From the NCBI GenBank assembly GCA_013297655.1, contig JAAFHV010000012.1, forward strand, positions 1-64,000: a stretch of 64,000 nucleotides of DNA, read 5' to 3'. A program made the translations under genes and the position numbers. This DNA is from Myxococcales bacterium (GTDB lineage: Bacteria; Myxococcota_A; Polyangia; Polyangiales; Polyangiaceae). The notes under the pieces are model-generated. The model made no database searches and was not told where the DNA came from. It saw only the letters and a program-made list of their open reading frames with translations. Below are positions 35,848-51,032 of this stretch, in pieces; within the stretch, counting starts at the first letter, position 1, and every line of letters begins with the position of its first letter.

Positions 35848-35955
35848 CTCCCGAGTCCCCGAAGAGCCGTCACGAGCCGCGCGATCGAAGCATGCAGATC
35901 GCAGGTATCGCGCGACGGCCGCGGAAAAGTGCGGCGCGGGGTTGCTTCCGTGCGT

Positions 35956-36148
35956 CCCAGAAGGTAGACGGGGAACGTCGATGGAGGCGGGAAGTCCGGT
36001 GAAATACCGGCACGGAGCCGCCGCTGTAACCGGGTACTTCTCTGCCACGAACCACTCGTCGTTCGCGTTCTCCTCGAGAGTCGCGCGCGCCGGGGAAGGA
36101 GGCAGAGCGGGCCGATCCGGGAGTCAGAACACCCCTCCGTCGAGGGCG
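35956..36148 (+). ncRNA. Cobalamin riboswitch
   Basis: The conserved elements are in order: GGGAAGTCCGGTGAAAT-ACCGG (about 35989-36010), GCCGCTGTAACC (36020-36031), GCCAC (36044-36048), GGGGAAGGAGGCAG (36092-36105) and GAGTCAGAACACC (36121-36133), ending with a C-rich strand (CCCCTCCGTC) that can close the base stem with GACGGGG near 35967. The element lies 80 bases before the lipoprotein gene at 36229. Downstream, GGCC-GGA-GGCC (36215-36225) can fold over that gene's GGAGG ribosome binding site, suggesting translational control. Cobalamin would be expected to turn the gene off. Confidence 0.93.
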
Positions 36149-36228
36149 AGAGCCGTCAGGGCCACGAGGCCACCGGGATCTCGCTCTTCCGAGACCTTGC
36201 CGCGCGAGCTTCGCGGCCGGAGGCCCGA

Positions 36229-37026
36229 ATGGTCAAAGGTGTGCTTTTTTCGTCGTGTTCGTTCGCCATCGTCGTCGCGCTGGGCTCTGCCGCGTGCGAC
36301 GCGGAGACGGTGACTCCTCCCATCGCCGACAGCGGGATCACCTTCGGAGAGGAGCCGGCCCCACCTCTGGATGACGCCGCGACGAAGCCGCGGGTGGACG
36401 GTGGCTTCCCGACCGAAGCAGGCGTGGTCCTCCCCGCGTCACGGTTCGCGAGCCGCGTCGTTCAGTTTACGCCCGGTGATTGCGCGGGCTTCGGCCTCTC
36501 GTCGATGCCGGACGTGGTGCTCGGCCCCCCCGAAGGCGGGGGCAACACGCAGGGCGGACTCGACGTGCTCTCCCTCGGCAAGGGAGGCTCTATCGTGCTC
36601 TCGTTCGAGGCCGATCCGATCGTCGACGGCGCGGGCCCGGATTTCCTCGTGTTCGAGAACGGGTTCTACGTGGGAAACGATCCGACTCGTCCGTTCGCGG
36701 AGCTCGCGACGGTGAGCGTGAGCGACGACGGCACCACGTTCCGCGAGTTCCCCTGCACGGCGAAGGCTTCGTCGCCGGCGCCCTATGGCGCGTGCGCCGG
36801 CTGGCATCCGGTTCGTTCGTCGAGCGCGAACGGGATCACGCCCTTCGATCCGGAGCTCGCGGGGGGCGACCCGTTCGACCTCGCCGACCTCGGCCTCGCG
36901 CGCGTGCGGTTCGTGAAGATCGTCGACAACGGCGAGGGCTCTTGCCCCGAGAAGCCCTCCGACAAGCTGACCACGGTCGGGTTCGACCTCGACGCCGTCG
37001 CGTCGATCAACCACGAAAAGAAGTGA
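36229..37026 (+). CDS. Riboswitch-controlled lipoprotein of unknown function (cobalamin-linked)
   Basis: The ATG at 36229 follows GGAGG (36219-36223). The 265-residue product is a lipoprotein (Cys after LGSAA). After a Pro/Asp-rich linker comes one domain with VLGPPEGGGNTQGGLDVLSLG, GSIVLSFEADPIVDGAGPDFLVFENGFY and DLGLARVRFVKIVDN. I recall domains of this pattern in secreted proteins of other phyla, but no biochemical role. Paired cysteines suggest disulfides. Because it is the only gene directly behind a cobalamin riboswitch, a role in binding or capturing a corrinoid at the cell surface is a reasonable inference. No btuB, btuCDF or cob gene is in the window. Confidence 0.85.
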   Translation: MVKGVLFSSCSFAIVVALGSAACDAETVTPPIADSGITFGEEPAPPLDDAATKPRVDGGFPTEAGVVLPASRFASRVVQFTPGDCAGFGLSSMPDVVLGPPEGGGNTQGGLDVLSLGKGGSIVLSFEADPIVDGAGPDFLVFENGFYVGNDPTRPFAELATVSVSDDGTTFREFPCTAKASSPAPYGACAGWHPVRSSSANGITPFDPELAGGDPFDLADLGLARVRFVKIVDNGEGSCPEKPSDKLTTVGFDLDAVASINHEKK

Positions 37027-37199: not shown

Positions 37200-37901
37200 G
37201 TGAACGTATCTCTGAAACTCTCCGCGATGGTCGCCCTCACCGCGATTGCCCTTACGGCCTGCGGCAAAGACGAGCCCCCCCAAACTCCCCCTGGCACCTA
37301 CGGCGCGAACGGCCAGTTCGGCCAGCCCGGCCAACCCGGACAGCCCGGACAGCCCCCCGCGGGCTACCCGGCCGGCCAGCCCACCGGTTACCCGCAGCCC
37401 GGCCCGGCCGCCACCGGCGCGCCTGCCCCCACCGGGGCTCCTACCGTCCCTGGCTTTCCGCCGGCAGCGCCAGCGGGTGGCGCCGGTGGCACCGCGCAGC
37501 AGCTCGATCCGAACCTCGCCGGGCTCGCCGCGGGTCCGATGATGATGTACGCGAACGGCGAAGCGCCCGGCATGGCCAAAGAAGGCAACATGGCGGCCGC
37601 GAACTTCCAGCCCGGCCAGACGCTCGAGGGCAACTTCACGATCCAGCCCGGCAAGTGCTACACGCTCGTCGCCGCGGGCGCTGGCATCAGCTCGATCGAC
37701 CTCGAGATGTTCCTCGTCACGCCCATCCCCGGCATGCAGGGCTCGTTCGCGAAGAACGCGAGCAAAGGCGCGCAGACCTCCATCGGCGGCAAGGCCAACT
37801 GCGTGAAGCTCGCGCTCTCGCCGGTCCCGGTCCAGGCGAAGTGGGTCGCGACCGCGAAGGCGGGCGCGGGCCTCATGGCGGTTCAGCTTTACTCGAAGTG
37901 A
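37200..37901 (+). CDS. Lipoprotein with collagen-like PGQ repeats
   Basis: AAGGAG at 37187-37192 points to the GTG at 37200. The 233-residue product has a lipoprotein signal (TAIALTAC), a Gly/Pro/Gln-rich stretch with GQPGQPGQPGQPPAGYPAGQP, and a C-terminal domain of about 120 residues containing LEGNFTIQPGKCYTLVAAG and KWVATAKAGAGLMAVQLYSK, probably a beta-sandwich. No named family. A strong GC hairpin follows at 37943. Confidence 0.72.
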   Translation: MNVSLKLSAMVALTAIALTACGKDEPPQTPPGTYGANGQFGQPGQPGQPGQPPAGYPAGQPTGYPQPGPAATGAPAPTGAPTVPGFPPAAPAGGAGGTAQQLDPNLAGLAAGPMMMYANGEAPGMAKEGNMAAANFQPGQTLEGNFTIQPGKCYTLVAAGAGISSIDLEMFLVTPIPGMQGSFAKNASKGAQTSIGGKANCVKLALSPVPVQAKWVATAKAGAGLMAVQLYSK

Positions 37902-41701: not shown

Positions 41702-43726
41702 ATGCCGCTCCGGGGGCGCTCGTCACGCTGCGAGCTCGCGTTGAGACCCATCGCGTACGCCATGACCGCCCTCTTCCTCACGTCACTCGGTGTGCCTCGC
41801 AAGGCGCGCGCCCAAACCAAGACGGCTCCCGAAGCGGTCGTGGTCACGGGTACCCGCACGCCCGAGAACGCGCAGCGCTCGACGATAAAGACCGACGTGG
41901 TCACCCGCGAGGAGGCCGAGCGTCGAGGCGCGACGAACGTGGCGGAGGCGCTCTCGTCGCAGCCCGGGGTGCAGGTGAACCCCGGCGCCTACGGCTCGAT
42001 CGGTGGCGTGAGCGCGATCCAAATCCAAGGCTTCGATCGCGACCGCGTTCTCGTGCTCGAGGACGGTGAGCGCATCGTCGGCGACGTTGGGGGCGCGATC
42101 GATCTGGCGTCGTTGCCGACCGCCGACCTCTCGCGCATCGAGATCGTGACCGGCCCCACGAGCTCGCTCTATGGCACGAGCGCGATCGGCGGAGTGGTGA
42201 ACGTGATCACGCGCGGACCGGACGCGCACGGGCCGAGCGGGCGGTTCCGCCTCGAGGCGCGGACCCAACCGGGGTATCTCGCGCAGGGCACGCTCGCCTA
42301 CCGCCGCGACTCGGCGTGGCTCGCGCTCGACGGGAACCTGGTCGGCACCGGAGAAAAAGCGGAGAAGCCCGGCCTCCCCGATTTCACGCTCCCTTCCGTC
42401 TCGCGGCGCATGATCGGCGTTCGCGCCGGGATGACGGTGCTCCCGCGCGTCGACGTTCGCGTCCGCGCGCGTTACTTCGACGACCTCACGAGCGGGCTCG
42501 AGTCGACGCTCGCTCCTGGGCTCGGGAGGTACCTCGTCGATCTACCGACGAGCACCCGCCGCGTCACGTTCCACGTCATCGAGAGCATCGATCTCGGGAG
42601 CGGCTCCAGCCTTCGCCTCACGCTCGGGAAACAGGCCGCGTTCGGCGACGCGACGAAGGACCGCCGCGACTCTCCCGTCGACGAGTCGCGTCTTCGGAAT
42701 CACGGGATGCAGAGCGCGGAGGGCACCCTTACCCTCGCCGACGGCGCGCGCACGTGGGTCGTCGGCTCGCGCGTCGAAGCCGAGAGCTTCTCCCAAGATT
42801 TGCGCAAGACCGAGAGCCAGACCGCGGGGCTCGTCACGACGGAAGGGCCCGAGGTCGCGCCGATCAGCTTCGGGAGCGCCGCCCTCTACGGGCAGCTCGC
42901 GTGGAAGATGGGCAAGAAGCTCACCGTGCTCACGGGTGGGCGCGGCGAGATCCACTCGCGCTACGGAGCCGTCGTCGTGCCGCGGCTGTCGGTCGCGTAT
43001 CGGCCGCGGGAGAACCTGCAAATGCGCGCGTCGTTCGGGCGTGGCTTTCGGGCGCCGAGCGCGAAGGAGCTCGGGTTCTCCTTCGATCACTCGTTCTACG
43101 GCTATCGCGTGATCGGCAACCCCGCCCTCGGCCCGGAGACGTCGTGGGGTGGCAACGCGGACATCTCCTACGCGCCGCACGAGGTGGTGACCCTCCGCGC
43201 TTCGGGTTTCGTGAACCGCGTGAGCGGGCTCATCGACGTGGACCTCGCCTCCGGGACCTCCACCGGAACAGTTGCAGACTACAAGTACGTGAACTTCGGC
43301 GACGGCACGACCCTCGGCGCGCAGGGCGGCGTGGTCGCGAAGGTGGGCGAGGTGCTCCGCGCGGAGGCGACGTACGACTACCTCTACACGCGCGACGAGA
43401 AGAACGAGCGGCCCCTCGGCGGGCGACCGCCGCACACGGTGACAGCGAGCCTTCGCGCGGTGCCGTTCTGGAAGCTCGAGGGGATCGCGCGCCTCCGCGT
43501 GGTGAGCGACGCGTTCGTGACGGAGGAGCTGCGATCGCCTGGTTATTCCACGCTCGATTTGCGCATCGGGAGGCCGCTTTGGGCGAGCTCGCAGGCCTAC
43601 GTGGGCGTGACGAACGTGTTCGACGTGAAGCAGGAGCCCGGTCGCGTCGGTGACTTCAGGCCGCCGTTCGGTCGTGTTTTTTATGTCGGTCTGCGCGCCG
43701 AATTTCCGTGGGAGGACGACAAATGA
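41702..43726 (+). CDS. hmuR: TonB-dependent heme receptor
   Basis: The start at 41702 gives a signal peptide (LRPIAYAMTALFLTSLGVPRKARAQ); an internal ATG at 41762 is possible. The 674-residue product has a TonB box-like VVVTGTRTPE, a plug domain (NVAEALSSQPGVQVNPGAYG, IQIQGFDRDRVLVLEDGERI, SRIEIVTGPTSSLYGTSAIGGVVNVITRG) and a 22-strand-type barrel ending in Phe-containing REFPWED-like strand sequence (GLRAEFPWEDDK). GRGFRAPSAKELGF is typical of heme and vitamin receptors. The heme assignment comes from the downstream HmuY and HmuTUVS genes. It overlaps the next gene by four bases (ATGA at 43723). Energy would come from a TonB-ExbBD encoded elsewhere. Confidence 0.9.
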   Translation: MPLRGRSSRCELALRPIAYAMTALFLTSLGVPRKARAQTKTAPEAVVVTGTRTPENAQRSTIKTDVVTREEAERRGATNVAEALSSQPGVQVNPGAYGSIGGVSAIQIQGFDRDRVLVLEDGERIVGDVGGAIDLASLPTADLSRIEIVTGPTSSLYGTSAIGGVVNVITRGPDAHGPSGRFRLEARTQPGYLAQGTLAYRRDSAWLALDGNLVGTGEKAEKPGLPDFTLPSVSRRMIGVRAGMTVLPRVDVRVRARYFDDLTSGLESTLAPGLGRYLVDLPTSTRRVTFHVIESIDLGSGSSLRLTLGKQAAFGDATKDRRDSPVDESRLRNHGMQSAEGTLTLADGARTWVVGSRVEAESFSQDLRKTESQTAGLVTTEGPEVAPISFGSAALYGQLAWKMGKKLTVLTGGRGEIHSRYGAVVVPRLSVAYRPRENLQMRASFGRGFRAPSAKELGFSFDHSFYGYRVIGNPALGPETSWGGNADISYAPHEVVTLRASGFVNRVSGLIDVDLASGTSTGTVADYKYVNFGDGTTLGAQGGVVAKVGEVLRAEATYDYLYTRDEKNERPLGGRPPHTVTASLRAVPFWKLEGIARLRVVSDAFVTEELRSPGYSTLDLRIGRPLWASSQAYVGVTNVFDVKQEPGRVGDFRPPFGRVFYVGLRAEFPWEDDK

Positions 43727-44868
43727 AGACGATCTCTGCCAAGGCTTCGGTCCTCGTGCTCGCCGCCCTCTCGGCAGCGGGCTCCGCCGCGTGCAGCGAC
43801 AGCGCCGCCGCCAAACCGGACGCGGGTGAGCCGACGGTGACCGATGGCGGCAAGCCGGTCGACGCCGAGGCGACCTTCACGTCCGGCGAGGAGATCGCGA
43901 TCCCGGTGCCCGAGAAGGGCCGCGTCTTCGTGAAGCTCTCGCCGCTCTCCATCGTCGCCGCGCCGACGGATCCGAAGGCGTCGAACGAGTGGGACATCGC
44001 GTTCGAGGGCTACGACATCACGACGAACGGAGGCGTATCCGGACAAGGGAAAGCGGCGGGCTTCGGACCCCTCGACGGGATCGCGTACGTGGCCGACAGC
44101 GCGCCGACGGTGCCGTTCCTCACCGCCGACAAAGCGGCGGGCGCGTTCCTCGATTGGTACGCCTACGAGGGCGCTCCGTCGCACGCGCTCTTCTCGCGCT
44201 ACCACGTGGTGGGCGTGAAGGACGGCGAGCGCCTGTGGAAGGTGCAGCTCCTCTCGTATTACGGCGAACGCGACGGCGCGCCGATAAGTGCACTCTACAA
44301 CTTAAGGTACGCCGAGCTCACCGCCAGCGGCGCGGGGCCGACCCAAGAAGTGAAGGCGCTCGACGGCACCGCCGGCGGCGCGGGTGGCGGCGTCGATCAG
44401 GTGAACGAGCTCCTCGATCTCGACAAGGGAGCACGGACGAAGCTCACCCCCGAAGGCGCGCTCGCGTCGAGCCTCTGGCACCTCTCTTTTCGGCGGCAGA
44501 ACGTAGGCGTGAACGGCGGCCTCGGCGGGACGCGCGGTATCGCCGCGTGCGATCTCGACGAGACGCTCCGTAAAGACGAGACGGTCGACGTCGTTCGTAC
44601 GCGCACGGCGGAGAGCGAGCGAGCGCGGTTCGACGCGGTGACGCGCGCCTCCTTCGAGGGCAAGGCCTTCCGCGCCGACAGGGTGGTGAGCGCGTTCGGC
44701 GAGCTGTGGCTCGACCGCGCCGGCGCGGTGCCCGCCCCCGCCTACGCGACGTGGCTCGTCGTCGACGCGAGCGGCCAGAAATACCTCGTTGGATTCAGCA
44801 AATTCGTTTCGGCCACCACGACGTCGCCCGGCACGGTCGTGATGCATCGCAAGCCGGTCCCAGGATGA
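43723..44868 (+). CDS. HmuY-family heme-binding lipoprotein with two HmuY-like domains
   Basis: GGGAGG precedes the ATG at 43723, which overlaps the receptor stop. The 381-residue product is a lipoprotein (Cys after GSAA). Residues about 55-200 contain NEWDIAFEGYDITTNGG and a closing LWKVQLLSYYG, the HmuY domain pattern. Residues about 235-378 repeat it in a weaker form (SLWHLSFRRQNVGVNGGLGG, then YLVGFSKFV). HmuY is a surface hemophore that takes heme from host or environmental proteins. A two-domain form is larger than the usual 200-220 residues. A dyad lies at 44289-44299. It overlaps the next gene at ATGA 44865-44868. Confidence 0.85.
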   Translation: MKTISAKASVLVLAALSAAGSAACSDSAAAKPDAGEPTVTDGGKPVDAEATFTSGEEIAIPVPEKGRVFVKLSPLSIVAAPTDPKASNEWDIAFEGYDITTNGGVSGQGKAAGFGPLDGIAYVADSAPTVPFLTADKAAGAFLDWYAYEGAPSHALFSRYHVVGVKDGERLWKVQLLSYYGERDGAPISALYNLRYAELTASGAGPTQEVKALDGTAGGAGGGVDQVNELLDLDKGARTKLTPEGALASSLWHLSFRRQNVGVNGGLGGTRGIAACDLDETLRKDETVDVVRTRTAESERARFDAVTRASFEGKAFRADRVVSAFGELWLDRAGAVPAPAYATWLVVDASGQKYLVGFSKFVSATTTSPGTVVMHRKPVPG

Positions 44869-45683
44869 ACATGAAGCGCAATACCCTCTTCGCACTCGGT
44901 CTTCTCTCCATCGCTGCGCTCGTGCCCGTCGCGGCCCCCGGCTGCTCGGATACGGAGGCCACCGCGGACGCCAGCACGCCGACCGCCGACACCGTCGCGA
45001 CGACGGAGCCCGAGGCCGCCGCGACGACGGAGCCCGACGCGACGGTGGCCGACTCGGCAAAGGAAACGTCGGTTCAAGGGTGCACGGCGGCGCTCGAGAC
45101 CCTGCTCAAGCCGATCGACAAGGTGTCGACGGGAGAGGTCACGATCCTCTCCGACGCTGGCGGGGAGCGGCTCTTGTTCGTCGACGCGACGGCGGGCGGC
45201 GCCGCGGGGGCGAGCCAGAACCCGAGGACGTACGTGAGCCTCGCGACCGGGAAACGGGTCGACGTGACCGACAAATCGGCCGCGACCTCGACCGACTGGG
45301 ACCTCGCCCTCGAGCGCGCGGTGCTCTTCACCAACAGCGGCCACGGCGGCCCCGGCTCCGGCTCCGCGGCCTACGTCGCGAAGCCGTTCGCCGACGTGAC
45401 CGCCGCCGACACGACCGGAAAGACGCTCCCCGCCGAGGCCTTCGTCGACGGGAGCTGCAACCCGCTAGTGGACCAAACCGGCGCGATCAAGAGCACGTTC
45501 GACGGCTGGTACGACTACGACGGCGCGACCAACAAGGTGACCCCGAAGACCGGCACGTTCGTCGTGAAGGGCGGAAAGGGTGCACTCTACAAGGTCGCGA
45601 TCACGCAGTACTACGCAACCGCCGACGGCGGCGGCCCCGGCCTCGCGGGTGCAAACTACACGATCCGCGTCGGAGCGCTCTGA
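44865..45683 (+). CDS. hmuY: HmuY-family heme-binding lipoprotein
   Basis: The 272-residue lipoprotein (Cys after AAPG) has an Ala/Thr-rich linker and one HmuY domain: STDWDLALERAVLFTNSGHGGPGSGSA, GWYDYDGATNKVTPKTGTFVVKGGKGALYKVAITQYYA. Start at 44865 overlaps the previous stop; ATG 44871 is an alternative. Its GGKGALYKV-type strand and the ISALYNL strand of the two-domain protein are both written with the same unusual DNA words (TGCACTCTACAA, dyads at 45581 and 44289). It should bind heme at the surface and hand it to the receptor. Confidence 0.88.
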   Translation: MNMKRNTLFALGLLSIAALVPVAAPGCSDTEATADASTPTADTVATTEPEAAATTEPDATVADSAKETSVQGCTAALETLLKPIDKVSTGEVTILSDAGGERLLFVDATAGGAAGASQNPRTYVSLATGKRVDVTDKSAATSTDWDLALERAVLFTNSGHGGPGSGSAAYVAKPFADVTAADTTGKTLPAEAFVDGSCNPLVDQTGAIKSTFDGWYDYDGATNKVTPKTGTFVVKGGKGALYKVAITQYYATADGGGPGLAGANYTIRVGAL

Positions 45684-45684
45684 C

Positions 45685-47151
45685 GTGAGCCGGGCGCGTC
45701 GGTCGTCTTGCTCGTCGGATCTCGCGCGGGTAGCCCTCGGTATCGGCCTCGGCGTTGGTCTCGTCGCGAGCACGTGGAGCTCGTCTGCCCTCGCGCAGTG
45801 CGTGCGTCCCACCGATCCGGCGGGCTACGGCGGGCGCGCGTACGGCGCCGACGCGGCGAGCTCGTTCGACTCGGCGCGTATACGTGTATGGTACACGAGA
45901 ACCGGCCCCAACGCGGTGCGCGTCGCTTCGACGAGGCCCGACGAGGTGCCGGACGACGTCGCCGAGGTCTCCGCGATCGCGGAAGGAGCGCTCTCCTCGT
46001 ACGCGGCAGCAGGCTTCCGCGCCCCCCTCGCCGACGACGATCTCGCGTGCGGGTCGAACGGGGGGGACGGCCGCCTCGACCTCTACCTCGTCGATTTCGC
46101 CGCCGCAGACGGGACCACCGTGGCCGAGCGTTGCCAACGATCAGGAAAAGCCAACGCGTGCGCGAGCTTCATGATGGTCGAGGCGCGGATGGATCAACGC
46201 TACGCGACGGCGGGAGAGGGCTACCGCACCGTCGTGCCGCACGAGCTCTTCCACGCGGTGCAAAACGCATACGACGCGGAGCTCGATCGGTTCTTCTCCG
46301 AGGGCACAGCGCAGCTCCTGACGAAGCGGATTTACCCCGCGCTGCCCGATCTCGAGCGCTTCCTTCCGCAGTTCTTCGCGGAGACGTCGCGCTCCCTCGA
46401 CAGCCCGGGCGGCGGCGTCACGGCGGGCTTTTTGTACGGCTCGGCGGTGTGGCCGCTCTTTCTCTCCAAGACCTACGGTGAGCCGATCGTGCGGCGTGTC
46501 CTCGAGGCGCAAGCTTCGGGGGGCGGACCGGTCCTCGACGCGACCGCGCGCGTGCTCACGGAGGACGAGAGCTCCCTCGGCGCCGCGTTCCTCACGTTCG
46601 CGACATGGAACAGCTCGACCGGCAAACGCGCCGCGACTGGCGGCTACGACGACGCCGCGAGGTATCCACAAGTGAAGGTCGTCGACCTCCCCGAAGGCGG
46701 AGCGGGCGTGCTCTCGGGCCTCGGCGCGTTTTACTATCGCGTGGCGGTCGATGCGCCGCGGTCCGTGAAGCTCGAGGCCGATCCCGCGCGCGTCGGAGCG
46801 ACCCTCGTGCCGGTCGTCGACGGAAGAGCCGTGCTCGCGGACGCCAAGCCGCTCCCGCACGACCTCGCGAGCGGCGAGGCGATCGTCGTCGTCGCGGGGC
46901 TCACGACCGCGAAGAGCGACGCGCGCTTCGCGATCACGCTCGCCGATCCCATCGTCGTTTCCCCCTCGCCGACCACCCCGACCCCGGCCCCCGAGCCCCC
47001 CGCCACGGCGGACGCCGAAGCTTCAGGTGGGTGCATAATGCACGGAATGCCGGGCGACGACCACGAGGCGATCACGCCGTTCGTGGGCGCGCTTTGTGCG
47101 GCGCTCTACGCCGTGTGCCGCGCGCGAAGGCGCGAGAAAGCCCGATCATGA
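45685..47151 (+). CDS. HEXXH zinc metalloprotease with MYXO-CTERM-like membrane tail, inside the heme operon
   Basis: The GTG at 45685 begins one base after the hmuY stop and opens a signal peptide (cleavage after SSALA). The 488-residue protein has VVPHELFHAVQNAYD (about 186-200) with the zinc-binding HELFH, and a Glu further on in FFSEGTAQLL that could be the third ligand, as in the MXAN_6640-type putative metalloproteases. Beta-rich sequence follows, then a Pro/Thr linker, GGC, a hydrophobic segment (ITPFVGALCAALYAV) and a basic end (CRARRREKARS), the layout of a MYXO-CTERM sorting tail. It overlaps hmuT (ATGA). Its place between HmuY and HmuT suggests it digests hemoproteins to release heme; this is inference. 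Confidence 0.87.
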   Translation: MSRARRSSCSSDLARVALGIGLGVGLVASTWSSSALAQCVRPTDPAGYGGRAYGADAASSFDSARIRVWYTRTGPNAVRVASTRPDEVPDDVAEVSAIAEGALSSYAAAGFRAPLADDDLACGSNGGDGRLDLYLVDFAAADGTTVAERCQRSGKANACASFMMVEARMDQRYATAGEGYRTVVPHELFHAVQNAYDAELDRFFSEGTAQLLTKRIYPALPDLERFLPQFFAETSRSLDSPGGGVTAGFLYGSAVWPLFLSKTYGEPIVRRVLEAQASGGGPVLDATARVLTEDESSLGAAFLTFATWNSSTGKRAATGGYDDAARYPQVKVVDLPEGGAGVLSGLGAFYYRVAVDAPRSVKLEADPARVGATLVPVVDGRAVLADAKPLPHDLASGEAIVVVAGLTTAKSDARFAITLADPIVVSPSPTTPTPAPEPPATADAEASGGCIMHGMPGDDHEAITPFVGALCAALYAVCRARRREKARS

Positions 47152-48062
47152 AATCAAGGTCCAACGTCGCCACGGTTTTCTGCTGTCTTTTCACGACGAT
47201 GCTCGCCTTCGGGTGCGACAAGGGGAAGAGCCCCGAGCCGGCTCCGGTGAGCGCGACGTCGGCAGAGGTGAGCAAACCCGCCGCGCCTCGGTACGTCACC
47301 GTCGGGGCCGGCAACACCGAGATCGTGTTCGGGCTCGGGCTCGGCGACAAGGTCGTCGGCGTCGACACCTCGAGCCTCTTCCCGGAGGAGGCCACGAAAC
47401 GGACCAAGGTCGGCTACCAGCGCACGCTCGCGGCGGAGGGCATCCTCTCGCTCACCCCGACGATGGTCATCGTCGGCGCGGAAGCGGGCCCGCCCGGAGT
47501 GCTCGACCAGCTCAAGGCGTCGAAGGTGCGGATCGAGACGATCGACTCGGAGCCTACGATCGAGGGGACACGCGCGCGGATCACCAAGCTCGCGACGTTG
47601 CTCGGCGCCGATCCGAAGCCGATGCTCGAGAAGCTCGATCGGGACCTAAAGGCGGCCGACGAGCTCACGAAGAAGGCCACGTCGAGGCCCAAGGTGCTCG
47701 CGCTCTACGCGCGCGGGGCGGGATCCGCGCAGGCGTTCGGGCAAAAGAACGCGGCCGACACGCTCGTCGCTCTCGCCGGCGGCGAGAACGTCATGAAGGG
47801 CTTCGAGGGCTCCAAGCCGATCACGGCCGAATCACTCGCGGCGGCCGATCCGGACCTCGTGCTCGTGTCCACGCGCGGCCTCGAGAGCCTCGGTGGCGCT
47901 GACGCGCTGTTCTCCCTCCCCGGCCTCGCGATGACGAAAGCAGGAAAAAAGAAGGCCTTCGTCGCGATCGACGATCTCCTCTTGTTCGGCCTCGGGCCGC
48001 GCGCGGGGGAAGGCGTCCTGACGCTCTCGAAGAAGCTCCACCCCGAGCTCGTGTCGCCATGA
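47148..48062 (+). CDS. hmuT: Heme ABC transporter substrate-binding lipoprotein
   Basis: A lipoprotein signal (LAFGC) precedes a class III periplasmic-binding fold: VTVGAGNTEIVFGLGLGDKVVGVDTSSLFP, LTPTMVIVGAEAGPPGVL, a long linking helix, and AFGQKNAADTLVALAGGENVM. This is the HmuT/ShuT pattern; the protein picks up heme in the periplasm and delivers it to the permease. It overlaps genes at both ends (ATGA at 47148 and 48059), so the importer is translationally coupled. Confidence 0.94.
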   Translation: MKSRSNVATVFCCLFTTMLAFGCDKGKSPEPAPVSATSAEVSKPAAPRYVTVGAGNTEIVFGLGLGDKVVGVDTSSLFPEEATKRTKVGYQRTLAAEGILSLTPTMVIVGAEAGPPGVLDQLKASKVRIETIDSEPTIEGTRARITKLATLLGADPKPMLEKLDRDLKAADELTKKATSRPKVLALYARGAGSAQAFGQKNAADTLVALAGGENVMKGFEGSKPITAESLAAADPDLVLVSTRGLESLGGADALFSLPGLAMTKAGKKKAFVAIDDLLLFGLGPRAGEGVLTLSKKLHPELVSP

Positions 48063-49144
48063 CGATGGCGGAGGCGCCTACGAGCCGGCCGACACCTCGC
48101 GCCGTCGCGCGGCCGTTCGCGTGGGCCACGTCGCGGAGCTTCGTGCTCGCGGCGGGGTGCCTCGTCGTCGCGCTGAGCGTCGTGCTCGGGTGCGCCGTCG
48201 GCGCGGTGCACGTGCCGCCTCTCGAGGTGCTCCAGAGCATGCTCGGGCTCGAGACGCCGCATCGCGAGATGCTGATGTCGATCCGTTTTCCGCGCGTCGC
48301 CCTCGGGCTCTTGGTGGGCTCCGGGCTCGGGCTCTCCGGCGCGTCGCTGCAAGGTGTCTTTCGGAACCCGATCGTCGATCCGGGCTTCCTCGGGATCTCG
48401 ACCGGCGCGGTGCTCTTCGCCGTCGTCGCGGTGGTGCTCGGCGGGCATGGCGCGGTGTCGACGATGCGGACCGCCCTCGGCGCGCCGCTCCTCCTCAGCG
48501 CCGCCGCGTTCGTCGGCGCCCTCGTCGCGATGCTGTCGGTGCGCTGGCTCGCGACGGTGGAGGGCCGCCTCTCGCTCACCGCGCTGCTTCTTTCCGGCCT
48601 CGCGGTGAACACCGTCGCCGGCGCGCTCACCGGCGTCTTGCTCTACGCCGCGACCGACGTGCAGGTCGTCACCGTCACGTTCTGGACCTTCGGGAGCCTC
48701 GGCGGAGCGACGTGGGGCACCGTGCTCCGGGTCGCGCCGATTTTTGCACTCGGCCTCGTCACGCTCCCTCGCCTCGGTCGCTCCCTCGACGCGCTCGTTC
48801 TGGGCGATGCAGAGGCGGGGCACTTGGGAATCCCGGTCGAGCGCACGAAGCTGCTCGTCATCGTCGTGTCGGCGCTGCTCGTCGGCGCGCAGGTGGCGGT
48901 CTCGGGTCTCGTCGGTTTCGTGGGGCTCGTGATCCCGCACGTGCTCCGCCTCTGGGCGGGGGCCTCGCACAAAACGTTGCTCCCCGCGTCGGCGCTGTTC
49001 GGCGCGGCGCTGGTGGTGCTCGCCGACACCAGCGCGCGCATCGTGGTGAAGCCAGCAGAGCTCCCCCTCGGTGTGATCACGGCCGCCCTCGGCGCTCCGT
49101 TTTTTCTCGCGCTCCTCCTCAAGGAGCGAAGGAGGCTCGTATGA
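48059..49144 (+). CDS. hmuU: Heme ABC transporter permease (FecCD family)
   Basis: The 361-residue FecCD-type permease has about 10 helices and the family landmarks IRFPRVALGLLVGSGLGLSGASLQGVFRNPIVDPGFLGIS, GLVGFVGLVIPHVLRL and ELPLGVITAALGAPFFLALLL. It forms the inner-membrane channel for heme with HmuV. The N-terminus has about 30 extra residues before the first helix. It overlaps hmuV by four bases. Confidence 0.95.
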   Translation: MTMAEAPTSRPTPRAVARPFAWATSRSFVLAAGCLVVALSVVLGCAVGAVHVPPLEVLQSMLGLETPHREMLMSIRFPRVALGLLVGSGLGLSGASLQGVFRNPIVDPGFLGISTGAVLFAVVAVVLGGHGAVSTMRTALGAPLLLSAAAFVGALVAMLSVRWLATVEGRLSLTALLLSGLAVNTVAGALTGVLLYAATDVQVVTVTFWTFGSLGGATWGTVLRVAPIFALGLVTLPRLGRSLDALVLGDAEAGHLGIPVERTKLLVIVVSALLVGAQVAVSGLVGFVGLVIPHVLRLWAGASHKTLLPASALFGAALVVLADTSARIVVKPAELPLGVITAALGAPFFLALLLKERRRLV

Positions 49145-49965
49145 TCGAAGGACACGATCTCGACTACGTGGTCTCCGGGATCCAAACGCTCCACCGTGTG
49201 TCGATCCGAGCGGAGGCGGGCGAAATCGTCTGCGTGCTCGGGCCGAACGGGGCCGGAAAATCGACGTTGTTTCGCCTACTTTCGGGCGAAATTGCGCCGC
49301 GAGCGGGCAAGGTCACGCTCCTCGGACACGACGTGACGACGACCCCAAAGGACACCCTCGCGACGATGCGCGCGGTCATGCCGCAGGAGTCGGTGCTCTC
49401 GTTTCCGTTCACCGCGTTCGAGGTGGTGATGCTCGGCCGCACGCCCCACGCCACCGCCGGCGAGACGATGGCCGACCGCGCGATCGCGCGCGCCGCGATG
49501 GCCGCGACCGACTCCCTCGCGTACGAGGATCGAACCTTCTCGTCTCTCTCCGGAGGCGAGCGTCAACGCGTGACGGCGGCGCGGGTGCTCGCCCAGATTT
49601 GGGAGGGAGAAGAAGGCCGCGCGCTCCTCTTGGACGAGCCCACCTCGAGCCTCGATCTGCTCCACCAGCACGGGCTCCTCGAGACCGCGACGACGATGGC
49701 CGAGCGAGGCTGCGCTGTCGTGTGCATCTTGCATGATTTGAACCTCGCCGCGCGCTACGCCACGCGGGTGGTGGTGCTCCAAGAGGGCCGCAAGGTCGCC
49801 GAAGGAACGCCCCGCGAGGTGCTCACACGTGCCCTCCTCGCCGACGTGTTCGAGGTCGACGCGCGGATCTTCGTGCCAGAGGGCACCGAGATCCCCGTCG
49901 TCGTTCCTCGAGGTCCGCTCTCGAAGACAAAGCCCCCTCGCCTCGCCACAGGAGCCCTTTTATGA
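49141..49965 (+). CDS. hmuV: Heme ABC transporter ATP-binding protein
   Basis: The 274-residue ATPase has Walker A GPNGAGKST, a Q-loop Gln (MPQES), the signature LSGGERQR, Walker B ALLLDEPTSSLD, and the H-loop ILHDLN. The IWEGEEGRALLLDEP segment is typical of HmuV/HemV, which power heme import. A dyad (49723-49733) lies across the H-loop codons, using TTG and CAT. It overlaps hmuS (ATGA at 49962). Confidence 0.96.
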   Translation: MIEGHDLDYVVSGIQTLHRVSIRAEAGEIVCVLGPNGAGKSTLFRLLSGEIAPRAGKVTLLGHDVTTTPKDTLATMRAVMPQESVLSFPFTAFEVVMLGRTPHATAGETMADRAIARAAMAATDSLAYEDRTFSSLSGGERQRVTAARVLAQIWEGEEGRALLLDEPTSSLDLLHQHGLLETATTMAERGCAVVCILHDLNLAARYATRVVVLQEGRKVAEGTPREVLTRALLADVFEVDARIFVPEGTEIPVVVPRGPLSKTKPPRLATGALL

Positions 49966-51032
49966 CCACCACCACGCCCGAACGCCTCTACGCCGATTGG
50001 TCCACACTCAGGTCGAATGAGAAGGGCCTTCACGCCCTCGACATCGCGAAGAAGCTCGAGGTTTCGGAGGGAGAGATGCTCGCCTCGGCGTGCGGAAAAG
50101 ACGGCCCCGTGCGCGCGCGACGGCTCAAAGGACACATCAAGGAGATCTTCGCGAAGATGCCCTCGCTCGGCACCGTGAAGACCGTGACCCGCAACCCGAA
50201 CGCGGTGATCGAGGTGCTCGGTACCTACGACAAGATCGAGTTCTTCGGGATGATGGGACAGAGCGTGAGCAGCATCGACTTGCGCATCTTCGCGTCGCGG
50301 TACGGGCAAGCCTTCGCGGTGCGCGAAGAGACGAAACGCGGCGTTTCGGAGGGGATCCAGTTCTTCGACCCGTACGGACGCGCGGTCCACAAGATGTACC
50401 TCAAGGAGGGCAGCGATCGTGCCGCCTACGAGGCGCTCGTGGCCGAGCACTTGTCCGACGATCAGAGCCCCGCGATGGAGATCGATCCCGAGCCCCCGCC
50501 GCCGGTAGAACGCCCCGACGCCGAGGTCGACGTCGCCGCCTTCCGCGCCGAGTGGGAGAAAATGACGGATACGCACCAGTTCTTCGGGCTCCTCCGAAAA
50601 CACGACGTGACCCGCACGCAGGCTCTTCGCCTCATCGGGAAAGACTTCGGCGAGTCGGTCGACGGAGGGGCGTTCACGCGCCTCCTCCACGAGGCCGCGA
50701 AGCGCGCGATCGACTTCATGATCTTCGTCGGTAACCCGAGCATGATCCAGATTCACACCGGCGCAGTGAAGAAGGTCGTCGCGATGGGCTCGTGGATCAA
50801 CGTGCTCGACCCGGGCTTCGATTTGCACGTCGTCGAGAGCGCGATCACGCACGCGTACGTGGTGCGGAAGCCCACCGCGGACGGCATCGTCACGTCGCTG
50901 GAGGTCTACTCCGCAGACGGCGAGACCATCGTCCACGTGGTCGGCAAGCGGAAGCCGGGACAGAGAGAGAGCGAGGAGTGGCGCGACGTGCTTGCCACCG
51001 CGACGCGGCCACCGAGCAGCGACGCTTCGTGA
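49962..51032 (+). CDS. hmuS: Cytoplasmic heme-utilisation protein HmuS/HemS family
   Basis: The 356-residue product has the two-repeat layout of the HemS/ChuS/HmuS family: the first half with NPNAVIEVLGTYDKIEFFGMMGQ and DLRIFASRYGQAFAVRE, the second with DFMIFVGNPSMIQIHTGAVKKVVAMGSWINVLDPGFDLHVVESAI, in which a His ligand binds heme. Family members store, traffic or break open heme to release iron. It is the last gene of the operon; 466 gene-free bases follow. Confidence 0.94.
   Translation: MTTTTPERLYADWSTLRSNEKGLHALDIAKKLEVSEGEMLASACGKDGPVRARRLKGHIKEIFAKMPSLGTVKTVTRNPNAVIEVLGTYDKIEFFGMMGQSVSSIDLRIFASRYGQAFAVREETKRGVSEGIQFFDPYGRAVHKMYLKEGSDRAAYEALVAEHLSDDQSPAMEIDPEPPPPVERPDAEVDVAAFRAEWEKMTDTHQFFGLLRKHDVTRTQALRLIGKDFGESVDGGAFTRLLHEAAKRAIDFMIFVGNPSMIQIHTGAVKKVVAMGSWINVLDPGFDLHVVESAITHAYVVRKPTADGIVTSLEVYSADGETIVHVVGKRKPGQRESEEWRDVLATATRPPSSDAS

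Follow-up and report, generated by a model that had tools for sequence, protein, structure and literature searches.

A predicted corrinoid-capture lipoprotein of the BtuH superfamily behind a cobalamin riboswitch in a member of the Myxococcota

The 64,000-nucleotide stretch of Myxococcales DNA analysed here (the window) contains a cobalamin riboswitch followed by the gene of a 265-residue lipoprotein that, on the strength of its sequence and structural models, is very probably a corrinoid-capture protein, from a branch of the BtuH superfamily in which the domain occurs on its own. The initial annotation had proposed a surface corrinoid-binding lipoprotein, and this role is now strongly supported by linkage to cobalamin riboswitches in two phyla, by linkage to TonB receptors and by distant homology to BtuH. 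The same annotation had anticipated a fold other than the BtuG propeller, which proved right, and a new kind of binder, which did not, as the domain belongs with BtuH (PDB 7BIZ and the H-domain in 8BLW).

We propose that when cobalamin is short the riboswitch would leave the message open, probably at the level of translation, and that plentiful cobalamin would lead the switch to repress translation. Under shortage the lipoprotein would be made, exported and anchored through Cys23 in the outer membrane, presumably at the cell surface. Its predicted pocket, in which Asn144 and Phe146 would correspond to BtuH2 Asn399 and Phe401 and where Glu143, Asp217, Asp253 and Asp255 might coordinate calcium close to the nucleotide loop, would bind corrinoids (vitamin B12 and its relatives) outside the cell. 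The captured corrinoid would be handed to a TonB-dependent BtuB-like receptor, which is presumably encoded elsewhere in this genome and is adjacent in many relatives.

The riboswitch and the genes behind it

The initial annotation described a complete cobalamin riboswitch, and the RF00174 match indeed covers the model from end to end (1-189), scoring 65.7 bits (cmscan; gathering threshold 31.5; E 5e-14 over the window). The start of the element lies 11 nt 5' of the coordinate in that annotation (35956), and 73 nt separate the riboswitch from the start of the lipoprotein gene (Table 1). In the minimum-energy fold of the leader the ribosome binding site GGAGG pairs with upstream sequence; the leader folds were not more stable than those of shuffled sequences. 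Translational control of the lipoprotein gene by the riboswitch is possible, and because a terminator scan found no intrinsic terminator in the leader, translation is probably the step at which the switch acts.

Table 1. Coordinates of the features in the window and of the two other riboswitch-associated lipoproteins in the same genome
Feature	Position	Strand	Basis or context
Cobalamin riboswitch aptamer (RF00174), full length	35945..36155	+	cmscan 65.7 bits, model 1-189
Ribosome binding site GGAGG of lipoprotein gene	36219..36223	+	sequence
BtuH-like lipoprotein, 265 aa, ATG start	36229..37026	+	ORF
Putative signal peptide ending at presumed lipidated Cys23 (...VALGSAAC)	36229..36297	+	ORF and alignment by eye
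BtuH-type domain, aa 66-265, predicted corrinoid-binding, beta-rich discoidin/CBM32-like fold	36424..37023	+	AlphaFold, Foldseek
DFLVFENGF motif, aa 138-146	36640..36666	+	alignment of homologues
Second lipoprotein, GTG start, Gly/Pro/Gln-rich linker and small domain	37200..37901	+	before serS, after homologue, in many relatives
L046 lipoprotein, 417 aa, contig C145 of G000	L046:3387-4640		directly behind cobalamin riboswitch
L047 lipoprotein, 443 aa, contig C71 of G000	L047:192-1523		directly behind cobalamin riboswitch

The 265-residue ORF contains the motif DVLSLG...DGAGPDFLVFENGF quoted initially. Its product has a hydrophobic N-terminus and, at Cys23, an atypical lipobox; on inspection many homologues read LVAC or LLAC. 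A Pfam search of the protein found no family at E<=1, a plasmid collection contained no match, and phmmer with the single protein against the PDB returned nothing useful (PnpC, E 0.63). Among NCBIfam models there was a sub-threshold match, over residues 102-221, to the LIC_13355 lipoprotein family (NF033170; 46 bits, E 3.7e-12, cut-off 120). By this sequence comparison the window protein is related to NF033170 and stands outside the family as defined.

The lipoprotein had originally been described as the only close client of the riboswitch. That it is the only one is not certain, as the second lipoprotein gene at 37200-37901, which is conserved in many relatives, begins 173 bp past the stop of the BtuH-like gene and is possibly co-transcribed with it. 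The family of this second lipoprotein adjoins two of the genome's four riboswitch loci, a paralogue on the minus strand (L046:2188-3033) being divergent from the other riboswitch.

Distant homology to BtuH and the predicted pocket

The AlphaFold model of residues 66-265 (pLDDT 83.8, pTM 0.85) matched only one PDB entry at E<=0.001 in Foldseek: BtuG1 of Bacteroides thetaiotaomicron (8BLW, chain B; E 1.6e-4, probability 1.00). The TMq to this chain is modest, at 0.54; with the full-length model BtuG1 again ranked highest. BtuG1 has a C-terminal BtuH domain (PMC10404256). Judging from the fold, the match appears to fall in this H-domain of 8BLW, the remainder of BtuG1 being a propeller. The predicted structure of the window protein, a beta-rich domain of 200 aa, is not the beta-propeller of BtuG, and no propeller-only BtuG chain occurs in its top 50 fold matches. 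BtuJ structures are likewise absent from the top 50, and membership of DUF4465/BtuJ was ruled out, there being no PF14717 match at E<=1.

Direct sequence comparison gave a fainter signal. In the PDB the sequence profile matched BtuH2 (7BIZ) best, at a weak E of 0.1; another direct comparison gave E 0.22. The direct profile match covers the N-terminal half of BtuH2, a segment for which hhalign reported a probability of 92%, the segment having been chosen after the fact. The two families are bridged by a planctomycete protein (L146) that carries PKD domains, as BtuH2 does. It matches the window-family profile at E 1e-15 and the BtuH structures at E 3.2e-14 (8blw) and 2.7e-11 (7biz), and its gene itself lies behind a cobalamin riboswitch. 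Foldseek and this bridge together identify a homologue of the globular domain, some 200-270 aa long, that is expected of a BtuH protein, and the locus has the cobalamin riboswitch; it does not have the btuB operon.

The residue correspondence depends on shifting the numbering of the 7BIZ chain by 100, since only then does it agree with the residue names in the publication. In BtuH2, Asn399 binds the phosphate of B12 and Phe401 lies at the lower ligand (PMC8941943). Asn144 and Phe146 of the window protein align with these two residues, so that the nucleotide-loop contacts are matched; 50/50 homologues share the Asn and 49/50 the Phe. Glu143 is invariant, Asp217 is conserved, and Asp253 and Asp255 nearly so. 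As BtuH2 holds calcium and sodium close to the nucleotide loop, a metal site formed by these four acidic residues is a fair guess, no more. The Gln333 ribose contact of BtuH2 is not matched: the window protein has Ala86, at whose position Gln occurs in 8/39 and 10/50 homologues. The profile alignment stops short of the half that carries the corrin-ring contacts His476, Tyr510, Trp511 and Trp577, equivalents of which were not identified.

The conserved Asn also bears on the form of corrinoid that would be captured. Ligand specificity is not readable from sequence and varies among known corrinoid systems, and it could be argued that the protein captures incomplete corrinoids, for example cobinamide, in preference to B12 and other complete cobamides. 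However, Asn144 aligns with a BtuH2 residue that touches the nucleotide-loop phosphate, which incomplete corrinoids lack, and we regard a preference for them as very unlikely.

A broader objection is that the lipoprotein, while regulated by cobalamin, may use its discoidin/CBM32-like fold to bind not corrinoids but another target, for example a glycan or a receptor's cell-surface partner. The fold neighbours that rank after BtuG1 are CBM32, discoidin and factor V/VIII C domains, and LIC_13355 (NF033170) of Leptospira, a lipoprotein with the same domain, is described as a laminin/plasminogen binder (PMC11891782), unlike the corrinoid role predicted for the window protein. BtuG1, however, heads the list as the sole match at E<=0.001, homologues occur in operons with TonB receptors and with a DUF4465 B12 binder under cobalamin riboswitches, and the Asn that aligns with the B12-phosphate ligand does not vary. 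The LIC_13355 study, moreover, used refolded inclusion bodies and does not mention B12 in its text (PMC11891782). One of the neighbours, the CBM32 of AlyQ, is also given as a modest structural neighbour of BtuH (PMC8941943). Binding of a different target is thus unlikely in our assessment, and corrinoid capture remains the preferred reading. On the basis of the shared domain, LIC_13355 may be a corrinoid-binding protein.

Among characterized systems the closest are BtuH2 (BT_1956, 7BIZ) and the H-domain of BtuG1/BtuGH (BT_1490, 8BLW) of B. thetaiotaomicron, likewise lipoproteins in cobalamin-riboswitch loci. Their C-terminal domain is homologous to the window domain and the nucleotide-loop Asn and Phe are conserved, the similarity being remote. 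In BtuH2 the domain is preceded by PKD/Ig domains and in BtuG1 it is joined to a propeller, whereas the window domain stands alone after a short linker. In comparison with BtuH2, the window protein also lacks a match to Gln333 and mapped corrin-ring contacts, and has no btuB next door; btuH is in an operon with btuB in more than 80% of cases in gut Bacteroidetes. BtuG, a YncE-like propeller, has the same presumed role of passing B12 to BtuB, with an unrelated fold. BtuJ/DUF4465 proteins (PF14717, IPR027828) are surface B12-binding lipoproteins of jelly-roll fold under cobalamin riboswitches, and one is co-operonic with a homologue of the window gene (L105). Most likely, to judge from the alignments, the domain of the window protein is homologous to BtuH and works like it, with one contact absent and no btuB beside the gene.

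Homologous loci and the genomic setting

Homologues were found in 88/108 genomes of the window's family and in 177/284 genomes sampled across the phylum. The scoring proposed at the outset, of homologues behind cobalamin riboswitches or beside btuB, came out positive. A same-strand cobalamin riboswitch lies upstream at 50 of the 76 distinct homologous loci in Myxococcota and Planctomycetota, a sum that also takes in L012 (positive) and L014 (negative), and, of the 42 larger neighbourhoods, 18 include a TonB receptor no more than 4 kb away, abutting on the same strand in at least 8 of them. In the window's family the riboswitch is upstream at 16 of the 28 distinct loci besides the window: 13 score above gathering, two just below it (L019 and L033, at 31.4 and 30.1 bits) and one (L010) stands ahead of an intervening lipoprotein gene. 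Three further family loci have a divergent riboswitch in the gap. The corresponding counts are 10/18 for the rest of the phylum and 11/14 for the most divergent branch, and in Planctomycetota a riboswitch, mostly the genome's only one, lies within 1.9 kb upstream at 12/14 loci. The chance expectation is roughly 2 in 10,000 per gene (~2e-4, given that the 108 genomes, of about 8 Mb each, contain 223 switches). These counts come from related genomes and loci and are hence not independent, so that the binomial P calculated for them has no meaning as such; that the linkage recurs in two phyla amid differing neighbours is nonetheless difficult to account for by a single inherited arrangement. About one third of the homologues have no riboswitch within the region searched.

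The operons of relatives place the homologue among other candidate components of corrinoid uptake. In L113 (G028, from the window's family) the order is riboswitch, homologue, TonB receptor and BtuG-like lipoprotein; in L105 it is riboswitch, DUF4465 protein (PF14717, E 6e-53), homologue and TonB receptor, and DUF4465 proteins are B12 binders (PMC12751083, PMC13398666). In L104 divergent switches serve the homologue and a TonB receptor whose best model, TonB-B12, scores below cut-off. In L010 one riboswitch precedes an L047-type lipoprotein, the homologue and a TonB receptor, and this locus is a single operon of genes that the window's genome has on separate contigs. The lipoproteins adjoining TonB receptors (L113:4985-6418; L054, L058, L060, L062, L063, L100 and L012) have profile hits to BtuG propellers at E about 0.3, weak hits that suggest a better BtuG candidate than the window protein. 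Near cobalamin riboswitches in three genomes, the BtuH-like gene follows the gene of a larger surface protein that has a weak Kelch match, a tail of dockerin-like or TSP3-like type and no family assignment (L057:7370-8881, L056:10744-12561, L061:12432-14849).

In the window there is no TonB receptor adjoining the gene. A plus-strand cluster at 41702-51032 encodes a TonB receptor, two consecutive HmuY proteins, Peripla_BP_2, FecCD, an ABC ATPase and HemS/ChuX. The best NCBIfam models for its receptor and ABC genes are TonB-B12 and BtuC, both far under cut-off; because two HmuY genes and a HemS gene sit with them, the cluster is a heme uptake system and was ruled out as a B12 transporter. The initial statement that the window holds no known cobalamin gene is therefore upheld. 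The presence of this system 5 kb downstream raises the question of whether the lipoprotein binds heme as part of it. However, serS and an opposite-strand gene lie in between, close relatives keep the order CNMP-homologue-serS with no TonB-receptor match within 4 kb, and the riboswitch senses cobalamin, which makes a role in heme uptake highly improbable and leaves corrinoid capture as the preferred function.

The genome of the window (9.9 Mb, 97.6% complete) contains four cobalamin riboswitches. ORF inspection showed that one of them lies ahead of the gene of a class I ribonucleotide reductase. This enzyme is a substitute that works without B12, and it is a classic client of cobalamin riboswitches. 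Each of the remaining three is followed by the gene of a lipoprotein from a family of its own, namely the window gene, L046 (417 aa) and L047 (443 aa). The L046 and L047 lipoproteins have no Pfam or NCBIfam match and received no name from the search libraries; the L047 group has a weak YncE-propeller profile match (E 0.04). Both are candidates for further corrinoid binders. CobQ was not found in the genome, which has ten B12-binding-domain matches, and for this reason the organism, judged by that one synthesis marker gene, probably needs B12 and imports it. No riboswitch-controlled BtuB was found in the genome, and a BtuB candidate on contig C79 had, on inspection, no visible cobalamin context.

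In the literature BtuH is a domain of gut Bacteroidetes that has a few homologues in Firmicutes and no known structural relatives. We found no description of a BtuH-like protein in Myxococcota or Planctomycetota in the literature searched, outside which most subscription journals lie. A wider proposal has two parts: that corrinoid-capture proteins of the LIC_13355/BtuH superfamily are widespread and unrecognised outside Bacteroidota, in most Myxococcota, part of Planctomycetota and Leptospira; and that the window's genome has a dispersed capture regulon of three riboswitch-controlled lipoproteins (the window gene, L046 and L047), none seen beside BtuB, to which at least one more new family of binders would belong. 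For the two parts jointly we put the chances at about even. A stand-alone BtuH relative that recurs as a client of the cobalamin riboswitch in Myxococcota and Planctomycetota would make lipoprotein-assisted B12 capture a general strategy of free-living bacteria; a family that has no function in Pfam would gain one, and the Leptospira protein filed as an adhesin would deserve a second look. Among the planctomycete loci (L136-L149, genomes G370-G475), some BtuH-like genes encode a PEP-CTERM-like or dockerin tail.
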